A stretch of DNA of 64,000 nucleotides, from assembly GCF_947492455.1 (NCBI RefSeq), contig NZ_CANLNB010000005.1:124001-188000 (forward strand). The letters run 5' to 3'. Numbering within the stretch: position 1 is the first letter of the stretch; every line of letters starts with the position of its first letter. A program made the position numbers and the translations under genes. This document shows positions 14,856-59,979 of the stretch, one piece after another. This DNA is from an uncultured Aliiroseovarius sp. Lineage in GTDB: Bacteria > Pseudomonadota > Alphaproteobacteria > Rhodobacterales > Rhodobacteraceae. The notes below the pieces were generated by a model. The model was given only the letters and a program-made list of their open reading frames with translations, did not search any database and was not told the DNA's origin.

Positions 14856-16241
14856 TTAGGCCGCAGACCGTCCGAAGGTGACCACGTTGCGGCCATCGGA
14901 TTTCGACGCATATAGCGCTTGATCCGCAGCCCGTGTCAGCTCATGTGCGCTGCGCGAGTCGTTTGGCTGATCCCCCCAAACCGCAACCCCGACCGAGACT
15001 GTGACCGCAATTGGAAAAGTGGCCTCGGCGACGTAAATCGGCAGATCCCCGATGGCGCGGCGCAGGCGCTCTGCCATGGCCATCACATCCTTTTGGCTGA
15101 CATCCGGCAGGGCGACCATGAACTCCTCGCCGCCAAACCGCGCCAGAAGGTCAAAGGCACGTAGGTTGTCGCGCAGACGATTTGCGACCTCGATCAGCAC
15201 CTGATCGCCAACACCATGGCCGAACCGGTCGTTGATGGATTTGAAGTGGTCCAGATCCAACACCATGATCGCATAGGGCTGCCCGTTGGTCAGTGCCTCT
15301 TGCTCCAGCCGGTTCAGATAGCTTTGTGCGTAGCGGCGGTTGTGCAGCCCGGTCAGCGGATCCTGCACCGCCAGTGACAGGTTGTGGTCAAAGCGTTTGC
15401 GTAGGGCATCCAGCTCTCGTTTGCGTGCCAGAAGGGTTTTCAGGCGCACGGCAAGTTCTGTCGCATCGAACCCGCAATTCAGGATCGCATCCGCCCCCAG
15501 ATCCAATGCCATCGCGCCATCGTGGGGGCGATCCCGGTCATGGATAACCACGATAATCGCGTTACGAGTATGCACACGCGAGCGCAGCTCGCTTACCAAT
15601 CGCAGACCGTCGGACTCCCCTGCCAGTGACGCGCTTATCACAAAGGCGTCGGGGGCATTCTTAAGGGTGCTCACGTCGCTGAGTGCCTGAGATTTCGTCA
15701 GCACATCCAGGCGGTGCGGAAGCTCGAGCCCAAGTTTGCGGCGCCACAGAAGCCCATGTTCTGGTTCCGGCGCGACAAGGGCAATATGGGCTGCGGGAAC
15801 AAAGCTCGCCGCGTCCTCGGCGCATCCGAACTCGGCCGAGATGTCGCGATGGCGCATGATCTCGTCATATGTGCCGCGCATGCGGATCAAATTTCGTACC
15901 ATCGCCGACAGCGTGCTTTCTTTCACGTCCGGCGAATAGACATCATCGGCCCCCGCTTCCAATGCAGCAATTCGGTTGTGCTGGCTGTCCTTGTCGGCAA
16001 ACAAGATGACCGGAATGGTGTGCAGGTTTGCGTCCTTTTTCAGAGCGCTGCAGATCGTCAGGCTTTGACCAGATTGTCCGCGTCCCAAGATGATCAGGTC
16101 AGGCTGCGCCCGCCGCGCCGTTTCCAGCACGTCGTCGATCCGCTCGACCTGAATCACATCATATCCTGACACGGTGAACTTCACCTTCAGGACGATGCGA
16201 TTGGTCGCAAGATCGTCTGCTATCAAGATCCTTCCGCTCAT
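14856..16241 (-). CDS. pleD: PleD-like diguanylate cyclase with degenerate receiver domains
   Basis: A 461-residue protein with two receiver-like domains (about residues 1-120 and 150-275) and a GGDEF domain. The cyclase is intact: LARFGGEEF active site and RAFD five residues upstream, the RxxD inhibitory site. The first receiver keeps the acidic pair (IADD) but has Gly in PDLIILGRGQSG where PleD has the phosphoacceptor Asp, and lacks the conserved Thr and Lys (YSPDV instead of LTKPI). The second receiver also has no Asp at the site (FVISASL). It should make cyclic di-GMP, but control by phosphorylation looks lost. Confidence 0.9.
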   Translation of the reverse strand: MSGRILIADDLATNRIVLKVKFTVSGYDVIQVERIDDVLETARRAQPDLIILGRGQSGQSLTICSALKKDANLHTIPVILFADKDSQHNRIAALEAGADDVYSPDVKESTLSAMVRNLIRMRGTYDEIMRHRDISAEFGCAEDAASFVPAAHIALVAPEPEHGLLWRRKLGLELPHRLDVLTKSQALSDVSTLKNAPDAFVISASLAGESDGLRLVSELRSRVHTRNAIIVVIHDRDRPHDGAMALDLGADAILNCGFDATELAVRLKTLLARKRELDALRKRFDHNLSLAVQDPLTGLHNRRYAQSYLNRLEQEALTNGQPYAIMVLDLDHFKSINDRFGHGVGDQVLIEVANRLRDNLRAFDLLARFGGEEFMVALPDVSQKDVMAMAERLRRAIGDLPIYVAEATFPIAVTVSVGVAVWGDQPNDSRSAHELTRAADQALYASKSDGRNVVTFGRSAA

Positions 16242-16331
16242 CAGGCCGTTTCGCTAAATGTTGAATTGAGTTGGAGACATCCTGCGGCGGATTGGTTAAG
16301 AAATCCTTTCCAAATGAAAAGGAGTGTTAAA

Positions 16332-16610
16332 TTGACGTCGGATCAAGCCGAACGGATTGCGCTGAATATGCTGGCCTGGCTGGTGTCAAATGACGACCTT
16401 TTGCCGATTTTCATGGGGGCGACCGGGGCAGGGCAGGACACGTTGCGGGATCGCGCGGGCGAACCCGAGTTTCTTGCCGCGATGCTCGATTTTCTGATGA
16501 TGGATGATCAATGGATCATGCAAGCCTGTGATGCGCAGGGGCTGGCCTATGATCAGGTTGCGCAGGTCCGACACGCTTTGCCGGGCGGATCAGAAATGCA
16601 CTGGACCTGA
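16332..16610 (+). CDS. DUF3572 family protein
   Basis: A 92-residue soluble, mostly helical protein. The start is a TTG at 16332, chosen because AAGGAG (16318-16323) lies at a good distance and family members begin with this SDQAERIALNMLAWL block; an ATG at 16314 has no ribosome site. LLPIFMGATGAG and FLAAMLDFLMMDDQWIM are the family's conserved blocks. Function unknown. It sits between the divergent pleD and a HAD phosphatase gene, an order I believe recurs in Rhodobacterales. Confidence 0.82.
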   Translation: MTSDQAERIALNMLAWLVSNDDLLPIFMGATGAGQDTLRDRAGEPEFLAAMLDFLMMDDQWIMQACDAQGLAYDQVAQVRHALPGGSEMHWT

Positions 16611-16657
16611 TGGTCTGATATGGGCAGTGTGGCCTTGAAACGCAGCTAGGAGCACCC

Positions 16658-17350
16658 ATGATGATCAAGGCCCTTCTCTTTGACAAGGACGGCACGCTTT
16701 TCCAGTTCAAGGCAACGTGGGAGGCCTGGGCGCATGCGGTGCTTTTGCGCCTGACGAACGGTGATCATGCGCACGCGGCCGAGGTGGGCCGGGACATCGG
16801 GTTCGATATGGAGACGCAGTCATTTGCACGTGACAGCGTGGTGATTGCCGGCACCCCGGCCGAGATTGTCTCGGCTCTGCAAAAACACTTCGATTTGTCA
16901 GCTAACGCGCTGGAAACCATTCTTAACGACGAGGCTGAAACCGCGCCTCAGGTTGAAGCGGTCGCCTTGGTGCCTTTGATGGAAGAGCTGCGTGCCCGAG
17001 GGTTGGCCTTGGGTGTAGCGACAAACGACGCCGAGCGCCCTGCGCGACAGCATTTGGAAGGGGCAGGCGTGTCGAATCTGTTCGATTTTATTTCGGGCTA
17101 TGACAGCGGAAATGGCGTCAAGCCGGACGCCGCTCCCTGCCTCGCCTTTGCACGGGCGGTGGAGGTGAGCTCGGATCAAGTCGCGATGGTGGGCGACAGC
17201 CTGCATGACCTGAAAGCGGGGCGTGCGGCTGGGATGCGCACGATTGGGGTATTGACGGGGTTGGCGACACACAGCGAACTGTCACCCTTCGCAGACGTTG
17301 TGCTGGACGATATCGGGCAAATCCCGGCGTGGCTGGATCAGAGCGCCTGA
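16658..17350 (+). CDS. HAD-superfamily hydrolase (phosphoglycolate-phosphatase-like)
   Basis: A 230-residue cytoplasmic phosphatase. Motif I is FDKDGTLF (nucleophile Asp near residue 9), motif II GVATND, motif III the Lys of GVKPDAAP, motif IV VGDSLHDLKAGRAAGM. A helical cap lies between motifs I and II. Substrate is unknown; Gph-like or nucleotide phosphatases are the nearest types. The first two codons are both ATG; either could start. An AGGAGC ribosome site precedes them. Confidence 0.9.
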   Translation: MMIKALLFDKDGTLFQFKATWEAWAHAVLLRLTNGDHAHAAEVGRDIGFDMETQSFARDSVVIAGTPAEIVSALQKHFDLSANALETILNDEAETAPQVEAVALVPLMEELRARGLALGVATNDAERPARQHLEGAGVSNLFDFISGYDSGNGVKPDAAPCLAFARAVEVSSDQVAMVGDSLHDLKAGRAAGMRTIGVLTGLATHSELSPFADVVLDDIGQIPAWLDQSA

Positions 17351-17407: not shown

Positions 17408-18016
17408 ATGACGCGTGTGATGACAATGCATGGCTTGATTTTATGGATATTCGAAGCCTTTGTGCGCCTGACCTATGGGGATCAGGTGTGGGAAAAGGCG
17501 CTGACGGATCTTGATCTTCATGTTCAATCCGTCGAGCCGATGTTTCACTATGACGATCAGATTGGTCTTTCGATCTTAAGGCAGTTGGCGATCCAGCAAA
17601 ACCGAGACCGGACCTCGATCTTAGAAGATTTCGGCACATTTCTTGTCACTGACCCTCGGGTCGAACGCGTACGGCGTTTGTTGCGCTTTGGTGGGGTTGA
17701 ATACACTGATTTCCTGCACTCACTGGAAGATCTTAAAGGACGTGCGCGTTTGGCGGTTCCAGACCTGACCCTGCCGGACATACAGGTGGATGAAGTCCAA
17801 CTCCATGTGTTTCAGATCACATGCGAAAACACCCCCAAAGGCGCCCCATATGTTCTGCTGGGGGCCTTGCGTGCGCTGGCGGATGATTATGGTTCGCTCG
17901 CATATCTCGAGATATTGGCCGAGCAACAGGACAGCGTTGTCGTGAACGTCAGTTTGTTGGAACGTCAGCATGCCGAGGGACGCGAATTTGTGTGGGCAAC
18001 GGACGGTGCACCATGA
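17408..18016 (+). CDS. H-NOX-like protein lacking the heme-ligating His
   Basis: A 202-residue protein matching the heme NO-binding (H-NOX) family along its length: MHGLILWIFEAFVRLTYGDQVW at the start (20 or fewer residues are key: HGL, YGD, W), FGTFLV near residue 75, DFLHSLEDLK near 101-110. In the family the last position of DFLxxLDxLH is the proximal heme His; here it is Lys110. The YxSxR motif that holds the heme propionates is also absent (LHVFQITCEN). ATGs at 17408, 17420 and 17426 are all possible; the family pattern favours the last. It overlaps the HNOBA-GGDEF gene by four bases, so the two products probably form a pair. Confidence 0.85.
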   Translation: MTRVMTMHGLILWIFEAFVRLTYGDQVWEKALTDLDLHVQSVEPMFHYDDQIGLSILRQLAIQQNRDRTSILEDFGTFLVTDPRVERVRRLLRFGGVEYTDFLHSLEDLKGRARLAVPDLTLPDIQVDEVQLHVFQITCENTPKGAPYVLLGALRALADDYGSLAYLEILAEQQDSVVVNVSLLERQHAEGREFVWATDGAP

Positions 18017-19026
18017 ATATTGAACGGCCTATTCCTTTTACCTGTGGCGCCTTGGATCATGTGCTTCCCTTGCACATGATCATCGACGGTTCCGGAGTGG
18101 TGCGCCACGCTGGGCCAACGATCCAGAAAGTCTTTGGTAAGCGCAAAGTGATAGGCCGGAATGTTTTTGGTTTGCTCGAGCTCAGGCGGCCCAGAAGCAT
18201 TTCGCGAATCGAAGATGTTGCCAAGATTGATGCGCGGCGGGTGCTGCTGAAAATCCGGGATGAATACCGCATGTCCGTGACCGGTGCGGTAACCGTGATG
18301 CCGGATTTGGATAGCGTGCTGCTAAACCTTTCCTTTGGCTATTCCATATCCGAAGCGGTCGCGCGCTATGAACTGACTGGCTCGGATTTTGCGCCAACTG
18401 ACTTAGCGGTTGAGATGCTGTATCTGGTTGAAGCGAAGTCTGCCGTGATGGAGATCGCCACCCAGTTGGCGCATCGTCTTCAGGGCGAAAAGGAAGTTGC
18501 CCAGACGCAGGCGCTAACGGATGGCTTGACCGGTCTTGCCAATCGGCGTGCCCTTGAACTGCGGTTAGAGCGGCAGTTTTTGCGGGGTGTGCCATTCTCG
18601 TTGATGCATCTCGATCTGGATTTTTTCAAATCGGTTAATGATACATATGGTCACGCGGCGGGGGACGCCGTGCTCGAATCTGTCGCCCAGATCCTGCGGG
18701 AAGAAACTCGTAAAGAGGATCTTGTCGCGCGGGTTGGTGGGGACGAGTTCGTGATTGTTTTGGACAATCAGGTCTATCCAACGCGGTTGGAAAAAATATC
18801 CACGCGTCTGATCAGGCGGATCGAAAGCCCAATATTGTTTCAGGACCAAGAATGCCGGGTGTCGGCCAGTATTGGTGTTGTGCCGTCGACAAACTATGCA
18901 AACCCGGATCAAACCATAATGGCCGAGGACGCGGACAAGGCGCTTTATGCATCGAAACACGCTGGGCGGGCAGGGTTTACGATTGCGGGTCGACCTGACG
19001 CGGTGGGGCGTTCTCTGATGAATTAA
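18013..19026 (+). CDS. HNOBA-GGDEF diguanylate cyclase, partner of the H-NOX-like protein
   Basis: A 337-residue cytoplasmic protein. Residues 1-140 match the HNOBA (H-NOX-associated, PAS-like) domain, with PLHMIIDGSGVVRHAGP and the region after it. A helical linker (about 140-170) leads to a GGDEF domain with LTDGLTGLANRRAL, the active site ARVGGDEF and RKED five residues upstream as the RxxD inhibitory site, so it should be active and product-inhibited. The start at 18013 overlaps the previous stop (ATGA). H-NOX/diguanylate cyclase pairs are an established NO-sensing arrangement in bacteria, including Dinoroseobacter; here the sensor partner seems unable to bind heme in the usual way. Confidence 0.92.
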   Translation: MNIERPIPFTCGALDHVLPLHMIIDGSGVVRHAGPTIQKVFGKRKVIGRNVFGLLELRRPRSISRIEDVAKIDARRVLLKIRDEYRMSVTGAVTVMPDLDSVLLNLSFGYSISEAVARYELTGSDFAPTDLAVEMLYLVEAKSAVMEIATQLAHRLQGEKEVAQTQALTDGLTGLANRRALELRLERQFLRGVPFSLMHLDLDFFKSVNDTYGHAAGDAVLESVAQILREETRKEDLVARVGGDEFVIVLDNQVYPTRLEKISTRLIRRIESPILFQDQECRVSASIGVVPSTNYANPDQTIMAEDADKALYASKHAGRAGFTIAGRPDAVGRSLMN

Positions 19027-20037
19027 CAGATGCCGGGGTGGGTCTCAACGCAACGTTGCCCCCCTCGCGTCAGAGCGCCAACATCATTGCTATCGCGTGT
19101 AATAAAGCGTTCAACGGTCGCTGAAATTGGACGTTTTACTGATGCCGGTTGGTGGAGCTGCACAGGCCGGAGAAATCATCTGTCCTCTCCCTTAGGCATC
19201 CATTGAATCGCGCGGAGGTGTCGGAAGCCGATATTCACGCAGATTGATCGCTTGATTGGGTATTTAGTGGCCTCTCGTTCGCGGGGACATGGACCTAGGA
19301 AGGCGGCAATTGCTGCCGACAGATTATGCGTGCTCTGACGGGTGCGTCGATCTGTGTGTCCGTGCGTGCAGATCACGCCCCCGATGGCGTGGTTCGTGTC
19401 GTGATTTTCGAGGGGCCGTGTGGTCCCGCGAGGTTTGATGTCGGACACTAATTGTACTGGCTGAACTCCAATCCGAATAACGGATGTCTGTACATTAGCT
19501 GATTTCAAGAGCTCCAACTGGCAGTGCGGGCAGTTTAGAGCTAACCAGTCTCCGCTGAATTTCGCGATTTACTGGGAATTCACAGGGAAATTACGGCTAG
19601 TTTTGACTGTGATATGCCAAAACGGGGAAAAGCCACCTGATAAAACTCAAAAAAAGAGGGGTGTTGAAGGCAATTTCCCTGTTAGTGAAACAACAGGGAA
19701 TATGGTTTTGGATTTTAGGGAAATCCTGCCGCTGATCCTCCGTTTCCTAACCATAGCGGCGGACCATTTCAGTGGGGGAGGATCAACGATTGTCATGGGC
19801 TCTCTGCAGACCTCGGAGGCGGCGCAAAAACGACAAAACCAAGGGCTTATAGTAAGACGATGACGGCCCAGAGTATGGTCAGTCGATGCCGCAGCTGCTA
19901 CCCGTATTCCAGATATTGGCAAAGCCTTGAGAAGACCGTAGGTTGAGTTAGTTAGCCTCTGAATCCTGATGCGCAAAACTCAGCATTCAGTGTATGAGCG
20001 TTTTGAAAAGGGTAGCGCATCAAGCGTGAAGCAAAAA
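19027..20037. other. Long non-coding, AT-richer stretch with an inverted repeat
   Basis: No convincing gene is seen in about 1 kb. Base composition is visibly lower in GC than the flanking genes. It contains an 11-bp perfect inverted repeat (acagggaaatt at 19582-19592, complement at 19672-19682) and further copies of the CAGGGAA word near 19692 and 19724. Possible reading frames here are short and have no recognisable protein pattern. The stretch may be the scar of past insertions and may carry the promoter of the protease gene. Confidence 0.55.
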
Positions 20038-22170
20038 ATGAGATTTTCGAAGTATATCGCCGCGTTACTGGTTTGTCCGACGGTTCTTTTAACGGGGTGT
20101 GTAGGAGATGACACATCTTCTGGTGGGGGAGGAGAAACCGGCTCACCTCCCTCGACGAGTGACGCGCTGCAGGCTTACTTTCTTCAAAGTCTTGATACGG
20201 TGCGTGCTGAGGCGAACCGATTGCTCAATGATGACTCGCGGTACCAGCTTCAAGACACTCCGACTGGTGCCTACGCGGACTTGAATGGGAACGGTGTCTA
20301 CGATCCCATTGTGGATGTACTATTGAATGGAAGCCCTCTCAGGCATGCTGGTATTCACTATGCGCATGCTGCGGGCTTAACCGGGGCGGGCGAAGTTATC
20401 GCGATCTCGGATGCTGGATTTCTTACGAGCCATGAAACTCTGGCAGGAAAGACACTGACCACAGGATCAAACTTATTAGTAGATAATCACGGCACTTTTG
20501 TCGCATCCGTGGCGGCCGGCAACTCGGATGACATGATTGGCGTTGCCCCAGAAGCAGATCTGATTTTAGGCAACTTCGGGAGCTTCGAACAGCTGCGCGA
20601 AACAGCCTTGAGCGCGGCTTCTCTCGGAGCTGTTGCCCTCAACAATTCTTGGGGATTTGATGGTTTGGACGCCACGATATCGGACTATAGCGAGATGCAA
20701 TCATATTCCGGTGCACAAAGCTACATTCAGGGATTGGAAACCTTTGCCCAAGATGGGATTGTTCTTTTCGCTGTTTCGAATGACAACGAGAATCCCACAA
20801 TCGGATTGATGGCAGGCTTGCCATTACTCGAGCCAGATCTAGAGGATAGTTGGCTCGCTGTCGTCAATGGTGTGCCTGTCATGCAAGATGATGACATTGT
20901 TTCTGCTCGACGGGTATCTGGCGCCTGCCTTGAGGCCGCAGCTTGGTGCATAGCTGCAGATGGAAGTTGGATTGGTGCAACTGCAGGTGGCATAGATAGC
21001 TATGCATTTGGCACAGGCACGTCTTATTCTGCTCCACTAGTTGCCGGAGCACTTGCTCTTTTGGCTGAAGCCTTTCCAACTCTGACACATCAAGACCTTC
21101 GGGTTCGACTTCTAGCCACAGCTGACAACAGCTTCACAGGTTTTGAGACGAGTGGCTCAGTGGAACTGGCCGATGGGTTTTATCACGACTACAGCGACGA
21201 GTGGGGGCACGGGTTTATAGATGTAGCGGCCGCGCTGTTGCCAATTGGGCAGCCCGTGGTGACGCTGGAAAGCGGTTTCGAGTTGGACGTTGGACGAGAT
21301 CCGTTAGCCGCTTCTGGTGGTGCTAGTGGTGATGCGGTTGCCCGCGCCCTGAATGGGGTTGAAGTTGTCAGTCTGGATGCCTTTTCAGCACCGTTTGCAA
21401 TCGAAGCATCTTCCCTAGTCGCGCAGCGATCGTCTGCTCCACTATTCTCTCCCAGTGAGCTTCATAAAAGGGATCGTCTTAAGGAAAGCAGCTTCCGTAG
21501 AGATGCTTTTTTTGGTCAAGGTGTCAGGGTGCCGCTTCAGGGGGGGGAGTCAGATCTCGAAATATCCTACTATAATAGCAGTTTAAGTGGTGTAGATTCT
21601 TATGGACTAGGCCTTAGTCGCACATTTGATTTTAGCAATGCTTCCTTGCAGCTGAGTGCAGGCATTGGGCATGACACAGCAAACTTGCTTTCGACATGGA
21701 ATGGCAGTTCAAGCTCAACGCTCTTTACTGTTGGGATGGCATATGCCGCGAATTTGTCTAGCAGCACCAGCGCCAGTTTTGAAGTTGGTTACGCATCGGG
21801 CCGAGAGGCTTCTATGTTAGCCCAACCCGCAGATGTATTAATGAACTCAGCTACTCTCTCGCTATCACACAGGAATGCTTTCACGCGAAACGATACTATT
21901 TCAATTTCGCTTTCCTTACCTGCGGCAGTCACTTCAGGAAGTACGTCTCTTTCACTTCCCACGTTTTCTGAGACGAACAAGATTGTCTACACTAACATTC
22001 CGGTCAGTCTCGCACCCGAACGGCGCGAAATGCAGTTGTCGTTGACCTATGAGCGTCCTATTGCATCTGGGGCTACTTTAGGCCTGACCTTGCGGCATGC
22101 CGAGAACCAAGGCAACATTTCGGGAGCCCGAGACACCGGAGTTCTGTTCACGCTAAATAGGGTTTTTTGA
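20038..22170 (+). CDS. Lipidated subtilisin-type (S8) serine protease autotransporter
   Basis: A 710-residue protein. The start at 20038 is chosen because it places a lipoprotein signal at the N terminus: lipobox LLTGC with Cys21, then a Gly/Ser-rich linker. The S8 domain (about 75-390) has all catalytic blocks: Asp in IAISDAGF, His in DNHGTFVASVAAG, Asn in ALNNSWG, Ser in GTSYSAPLVAGALALL. About 100 linker residues lead to a C-terminal beta-barrel region (about 490-710) of alternating strands, ending in Phe (LFTLNRVF). The plan is that of NalP and SphB1, surface proteases that process other secreted proteins. The gene is AT-richer than its neighbours (26 of 60 bases GC in 21841-21900), which suggests transfer. 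The ribosome site is weak. Confidence 0.85.
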   Translation: MRFSKYIAALLVCPTVLLTGCVGDDTSSGGGGETGSPPSTSDALQAYFLQSLDTVRAEANRLLNDDSRYQLQDTPTGAYADLNGNGVYDPIVDVLLNGSPLRHAGIHYAHAAGLTGAGEVIAISDAGFLTSHETLAGKTLTTGSNLLVDNHGTFVASVAAGNSDDMIGVAPEADLILGNFGSFEQLRETALSAASLGAVALNNSWGFDGLDATISDYSEMQSYSGAQSYIQGLETFAQDGIVLFAVSNDNENPTIGLMAGLPLLEPDLEDSWLAVVNGVPVMQDDDIVSARRVSGACLEAAAWCIAADGSWIGATAGGIDSYAFGTGTSYSAPLVAGALALLAEAFPTLTHQDLRVRLLATADNSFTGFETSGSVELADGFYHDYSDEWGHGFIDVAAALLPIGQPVVTLESGFELDVGRDPLAASGGASGDAVARALNGVEVVSLDAFSAPFAIEASSLVAQRSSAPLFSPSELHKRDRLKESSFRRDAFFGQGVRVPLQGGESDLEISYYNSSLSGVDSYGLGLSRTFDFSNASLQLSAGIGHDTANLLSTWNGSSSSTLFTVGMAYAANLSSSTSASFEVGYASGREASMLAQPADVLMNSATLSLSHRNAFTRNDTISISLSLPAAVTSGSTSLSLPTFSETNKIVYTNIPVSLAPERREMQLSLTYERPIASGATLGLTLRHAENQGNISGARDTGVLFTLNRVF

Positions 22171-59963: not shown

Positions 59964-59979
59964 TTAACCCGCAATTAAC
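59964..59979. promoter_or_regulatory. Perfect CtrA-type binding box
   Basis: TTAACCCGCAATTAAC matches TTAA-N7-TTAAC exactly, and also on the other strand. It lies between the RHH gene end and the start of the 75-residue gene, both on the minus strand. Confidence 0.5.

Follow-up and report, generated by a model that had tools for sequence, protein, structure and literature searches.

The locus studied here raises the question of what an H-NOX protein can do for its partner enzyme once the histidine that should hold its heme has been replaced. It lies in the window, by which we mean the whole 64,000-nucleotide stretch of DNA that was analyzed, and consists of an H-NOX gene followed by an overlapping diguanylate cyclase gene, whose open reading frames are both intact between positions 17408 and 19026. 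The original prediction was that the H-NOX protein carries Lys in place of the proximal heme His and lacks the YxSxR heme-propionate motif, and that it either binds heme through this Lys or senses something other than NO.

The H-NOX (HNOB) gene occupies positions 17426 to 18016 on the forward strand and encodes 196 amino acids when read from Met7 of the longer frame. This start is more likely than the upstream in-frame ATG at 17408 because the residues that follow it, MHGL, align with the first residues of other family members. The frame is whole and matches PF07700 (HNOB) with 61.4 bits against a cutoff of 25.5, as expected of the intact gene that had been predicted. The cyclase gene (18013 to 19026, forward strand) would encode 337 amino acids from ATG 18013 or 344 from GTG 17992. 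The former start is more likely and gives an ATGA overlap (18013 to 18016, forward strand) in which the cyclase starts on the H-NOX stop codon, an arrangement that may couple the translation of the two genes. In 117 of the 187 members of the clade described below, the H-NOX stop codon lies in the same ATGA.

The partner has the HNOBA and GGDEF domains and the catalytic motif of an HNOBA-GGDEF diguanylate cyclase. Its HNOBA match (PF07701; 18037 to 18258, forward strand) is, at 26.2 bits, barely above the cutoff of 23.4 and covers 74 of 216 profile positions, a third of the profile length. The GGDEF domain (PF00990, 138 bits; 18511 to 18969, forward strand) includes the catalytic GGDEF motif at 18736 to 18750 and, five residues N-terminal of it, the sequence RKED (18709 to 18720), which fits the RxxD pattern of an inhibitory I-site. 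By these features the cyclase appears to be active, in agreement with what was originally proposed for it.

Several neighbors of the pair were noted. A response-regulator-GGDEF protein (14856 to 16241, reverse strand), with PF00072 and PF00990 both above cutoff, lies about 1.2 kb away; used as a query it matched 171 of 171 clade loci, a result that was put down to cross-matching with the partner cyclase and discarded. DUF3572 and HAD-hydrolase genes lie upstream (16266 to 17350, forward strand). Matches to them occur in at least 53 and at least 93, respectively, of the 171 clade loci that exceed 5 kb, whose flanks differ, and this upstream neighborhood appears to be loosely conserved. Downstream, at 19969 to 22170 on the forward strand, is a 733-aa subtilase-family protein (PF00082) with a lipoprotein-like start; its C-terminal part looks beta-rich by eye, and the protein is possibly an autotransporter. 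No CtrA-like site (TTAA-N6..8-TTAA) was found near the H-NOX gene, the single match in the window being at 59964.

Three alignments placed Lys110 (codon AAA, 17735 to 17737, forward strand) at the site of the proximal heme His. These were a phmmer alignment with Nostoc Alr2278, an alignment of a 22-sequence profile with Alr2278, in which a single one-residue gap, well upstream, precedes the site, and a MAFFT alignment in which Lys110 shares a column with the His of the canonical H-NOX L002. The predicted register is thus borne out. His104 had been named as a residue whose placement at the proximal site would overturn it, and none of the three alignments puts it there; it was ruled out as the proximal ligand. 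The YxSxR motif is absent as well, as predicted, its place being taken by C139-E-N-T-P143 (17822 to 17836, forward strand) in all three alignments. The window protein therefore has neither the proximal His nor the propionate motif of a heme-binding, NO-sensing H-NOX. One element near the heme pocket is retained: Pro123 (17774 to 17776, forward strand), which is kept in 187 of 187 clade members, lies opposite Pro118 of Alr2278, which we take to be the Pro that touches the heme in canonical H-NOX proteins.

The window protein is nonetheless predicted to be a complete H-NOX fold. Its AlphaFold model has a pLDDT of 87.6, and the best Foldseek match of this model is the Nostoc H-NOX 2o09 (TM 0.81, E 3.7e-10). 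The model of a Pro-bearing relative, L235, which we take to be the Rhodobacter sphaeroides chromosome 1 locus, was built from 57 sequences and reached a pLDDT of 93; in it the ligand helix (residues 93 to 110) is predicted to run unbroken through Pro104, and its best structural match is also a Nostoc H-NOX (3tf8).

To place the window gene among its relatives, the HNOB profile was run on 295 Rhodobacteraceae genomes, one per genus, of which 221 matched with scores forming two groups. (Rhodobacteraceae is used here as the family name; NCBI now places Aliiroseovarius in Paracoccaceae.) The clade set comprises most matches among those listed from this sample, lower-scoring members, apart from the window's own, falling outside it. 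The set was extended with the 80 best of 528 named relatives that a genome scan had found, an addition that biases it toward the window's relatives; the best of the 80 is from A. marinus, with 94% identity over the whole protein, which puts the window's genome in Aliiroseovarius or very close to it. The 206 loci with a match gave 191 distinct sequences, 4 canonical ones that served as the outgroup and 187 clade members. For comparison, 28 canonical, non-clade loci in the family were chosen from the high-scoring HNOB matches among those listed.

The residue at the ligand site differs sharply between the two groups. Among the 187 unique clade sequences it is Pro in 128, His in 16, Arg in 9, Ser in 9, Lys, Ala, and Glu in 5 each, Asn and Gln in 3 each, Thr in 2, and Asp and Gly in 1 each, and Tyr was found at the Tyr column of YxSxR in none. 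Within the 116 clade sequences of the one-per-genus sample the distribution is similar (Pro 80, His 15, Lys 2, others 19). The canonical loci, in contrast, have the His in 27 of 28 cases and the full YxSxR in 27 of 28. Judged by these alignments, the His-less H-NOX is a trait of a clade spread through Rhodobacteraceae, and the window gene is a member. In the class at large, the clade profile matched 6 of 289 genomes; four of the six belong to the same family, and three score like canonical proteins (one of these three in the family).

Three sequences deserve mention, the first two being the exceptions among the 28 canonical loci. L029:1501-1977 (genome G086), of the canonical type, carries Gln where the proximal His is expected (GELQAEVHKLYP) and has a His four residues farther on, and its YHSDR keeps YxSxR. 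L033:3482-3958 (genome G017), outside the clade, keeps the proximal His and has YDHCR (Y-x-H-x-R) in place of YxSxR. L132 (JAHVJD010000007.1) is titled Nocardioides marinus, and its clade H-NOX closely resembles the Leisingera and Phaeobacter proteins, probably through an error in the name or the assembly, or else through gene transfer.

A search of related genomes had been suggested as a way to see whether the His-to-Lys change is shared by a clade that keeps the gene pair. The loss of His is shared by such a clade; the Lys is not, as it is found in 5 of 187 members, and these counts rule out Lys ligation as a clade trait. Its bearers are the window protein, three Aliiroseovarius relatives that are 87 to 94% identical to it (L092, L093, and L094), and the unrelated L208. 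Other Aliiroseovarius proteins have Ser (L095), Arg (L100), or Pro (L096 and L098) in a nearly identical helix. Over the 187 clade sequences, the column entropy is 1.86 bits at site 110 and 1.56 at site 111, compared to 0.25 at Leu109 and 0.23 at Arg112. The ligand site thus looks like a released position rather than the seat of a new ligand.

The His-bearing members are scattered. On a FastTree tree built without the site and with the four canonical rows included, there are 14 changes between His and non-His. When this tree is rooted on the canonical sequences, the His members L028, L087, L203, and L072 lie on early branches together with Arg, Gly, Ser, and Ala types, whereas others adjoin Pro, Arg, or Asn types. 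Since many branches have weak support, the tree fits early loss followed by regain as well as repeated loss. L072 is apparently the Dinoroseobacter shibae H-NOX. Its genome has no other HNOB match, a GGDEF frame comes next to it, and its His stands in the sequence DDLHDR. In 964 tests for columns linked to the His, Trp141 was found in 7 of 16 His-bearing members compared to 8 of 171 others, and Ser14 in 13 of 16 compared to 48 of 171. Kinship was considered for the six strongest columns, and with three supported independent pairs, a covariation signature of the His-bearing members was not established.

Purifying selection acts on the H-NOX gene. Among the four Lys-bearing Aliiroseovarius genes, the six possible pairs gave dN/dS values of 0.04 to 0.06, which are rough for the five pairs in which dS exceeds 1. 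Because this constraint goes together with a loss of His that the relatives share, the change in the window protein would be more than a chance event. The gene is also tied to the cyclase. A GGDEF frame lies downstream in the same orientation in 186 of 187 clade members, the exception being at a contig edge, and these partners have the GGDEF motif in 185 of 186 cases and the I-site pattern in 183 of 186. At the canonical loci, a GGDEF frame was seen in 3 of 28 cases within the flanks retrieved, which for the most part were 1.5 kb long.

Published work, cited here from the portions of each text that were covered, already describes this kind of protein and asks what it senses. A 2022 review (PMC8738867) defines an H-NOX "group 5" around Paracoccus denitrificans in which fewer than 10% of members have the proximal His and most have Pro; it describes the group as being without a conserved Cys and asks how such proteins sense anything. 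By that description the window gene would be a Rhodobacteraceae group 5 H-NOX. The clade shows the replacement of His, chiefly by Pro (Pro 128 and His 16 of 187), and the nearby GGDEF gene shown for P. denitrificans (186 of 187). Cys139 (17822 to 17824) is frequent, being present in 124 of 187, but not invariant, and 12 of the 187 proteins lack Cys altogether. A 2017 study (PMC5588039) reports that the P. denitrificans H-NOX lacks the His, as in R. sphaeroides, which agrees with the Pro at this site in L235. Biofilm formation was reduced in its hnoX mutant and increased in its dgcAB mutant; the authors' reading is that NO stimulates inhibition of DgcA through the His-less H-NOX and acts also without H-NOX, and the review repeats the model of NO-stimulated DgcA inhibition through H-NOX. 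In D. shibae, which has one H-NOX gene, adjoining dgc1 (PMC6473078), the NO-bound H-NOX is reported to inhibit Dgc1 (PMC7232146, PMC8846402).

The reading we favor, with a probability of about one-half, is that the clade H-NOX is a dedicated regulatory subunit of the overlapping cyclase that works without ordinary His-heme NO sensing and restrains the cyclase by default. Regulatory subunit is the most likely role of the protein in the pair, and cyclase inhibitor is probably the form that this role takes. The H-NOX fold would have given up both the His-heme and the YxSxR anchoring; the protein would bind the cyclase, with the HNOBA domain as the probable contact, and would hold it back by default, so that less c-di-GMP is made. 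Any remaining signal input would be something other than canonical His-ligated heme-NO sensing. According to the part of PMC12329717 covered, NO is thought to activate H-NOX proteins by rupture of the Fe-His bond, and in an ordinary H-NOX the His-released form would then act on the partner. A protein that has no His to release may, by the same logic, rest in or near the NO-released "on" form. It is this rupture model, taken with the P. denitrificans mutant phenotypes (PMC5588039), that suggests inhibition by default, and in this we depart from the NO-stimulated inhibition proposed by those authors. We are more tentative, and would not put the odds as high as even, about a fuller version in which the subunit is heme free, was frozen in the NO-activated state or rebuilt from it, exerts constitutive or new-ligand control of the cyclase, and has let the ligand site drift to Pro, with His kept or regained in a few lineages.

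Some observations count against a role apart from NO. The scattered His in 16 of 187 members would be surprising in a clade for which heme had no relevance at all, and the NO-dependent inhibition reported for D. shibae concerns an apparent clade member. If the inhibitor were purely constitutive, there would also be little point in retaining a distinct, sensor-like subunit across so many genera. Finally, nnrS, a gene related to NO, tends to accompany the clade: 102 of 127 NnrS-positive genomes are clade positive compared to 111 of 168 NnrS-negative ones (P = 0.008, not corrected for kinship), where clade-positive genomes are those with an HNOB match minus eight with a canonical match only, sequences having been read for matches in the listed part. 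This association is modest and not decisive. The 27 genomes with a canonical match, 19 of which are also clade positive, show no association with NnrS (12 of 127 and 15 of 168).

In the main rival reading, which we consider unlikely, heme would still be bound through another axial ligand, namely, His8, His104, or Cys139, and NO or redox state would still be sensed. The best candidate is His8, the second residue if translation starts at Met7, which is kept in 178 of 187 members, whereas canonical relatives mostly have Lys or Tyr at this position. His104, six residues before the site, is present in 133 of 187. Cys139 stands where the YxSxR Tyr used to be and is found in 119 of 171 His-less members compared to 5 of 16 His-bearing ones, counts that are not corrected for kinship. 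The invariance of Pro123 is a further point in favor, and NO sensing is assumed by the P. denitrificans authors in the text covered (PMC5588039). However, none of these alternative ligands is invariant, and some proteins, as noted, are without Cys. Lys110 itself is a very improbable ligand. The window protein shares this Lys with three close relatives, and it is kept across AAA and AAG codons, but the rarity of Lys in the clade, the Pro, Ser, or Arg of the sister Aliiroseovarius proteins, and the loss of YxSxR all speak against Lys ligation as an evolved feature, the first of the two options originally put forward.

The second option, a sensor for something other than NO, may hold and has already been raised in print. 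One specific form of it, a pocket that holds a different small molecule so that something other than NO or O2 is sensed, is rather improbable, though less so than Lys ligation. The fold is kept and the heme anchors are gone, and E73, D74, R89, R90, R93, D159, and Y161 are conserved in at least 98% of the 187 sequences. By their titles, the solved structures 4iae and 5mnw have activator drugs in H-NOX domains. Drugs of this kind take the place of the heme. Yet the neighboring genes point to no ligand, and the conserved charged residues could equally form the interface with the cyclase. That the gene is decaying and functionless is scarcely credible. Both heme motifs are lost, but the low dN/dS, the HNOB matches in 221 of 295 genomes, and the coupling to a cyclase in 186 of 187 members contradict decay.

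The implications extend beyond this locus, as the scan of named genomes found 528 stretches encoding a relative. The Pfam name of the domain is heme-NO-binding, and most clade members examined are without the ligand by which an NO sensor is defined. If clade members use no heme, the NO/c-di-GMP models for these bacteria will need revising. In the portions of the literature covered, direct-assay evidence of NO sensing was found cited for one apparent clade member, that of D. shibae (PMC8846402). Because this protein is apparently among the few with the His, extrapolation from it to the rest of the clade is unsafe. The His/Pro/Lys variation within one gene pair would make the question of sensing directly testable.

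Against the small part of the literature that was compared, what seems new are the counts, including the absence of the YxSxR Tyr from every clade member examined; the coupling to a cyclase relative to canonical loci; the local nature of the Lys; and the apparent position of the D. shibae protein as a His-bearing exception. A study that compares c-di-GMP genes across this class (PMC9756655) contains none of six H-NOX terms sought in its text, and no publication settling what the His-less members sense was found in that same part of the literature.

Among known systems, the closest are those of group 5, which resemble the window protein's clade in that the proximal His is mostly replaced by Pro; the window member differs from the majority in having Lys. 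The P. denitrificans H-NOX gene, like that of the window, overlaps a GGDEF gene (PMC5588039). The D. shibae H-NOX/Dgc1 system, if L072 is correctly identified, belongs to the same clade and has the same gene pair but differs in its proximal His and in the NO dependence of Dgc1 inhibition (PMC7232146, PMC8846402). Nostoc Alr2278 (2o09) shares the fold and aligns co-linearly across most of the window protein, but it has His105 and Y134-S136-R138 and binds heme. The H103G variant of the Shewanella oneidensis H-NOX (2kil) is a structural match of both models and lacks the proximal His, presumably His103, as the window protein does. Its state is reportedly NO-on-like; unlike the window protein, however, it is a laboratory mutant of a heme protein. 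A natural counterpart is the H-NOX-like domain of the soluble guanylate cyclase alpha subunit, which sits in a cyclase and has no heme. The window model matches it weakly (8hbe_A, TM 0.51, chain A being, we assume, the alpha subunit), and it differs in being eukaryotic, fused, and partnered with a heme-bearing beta subunit.
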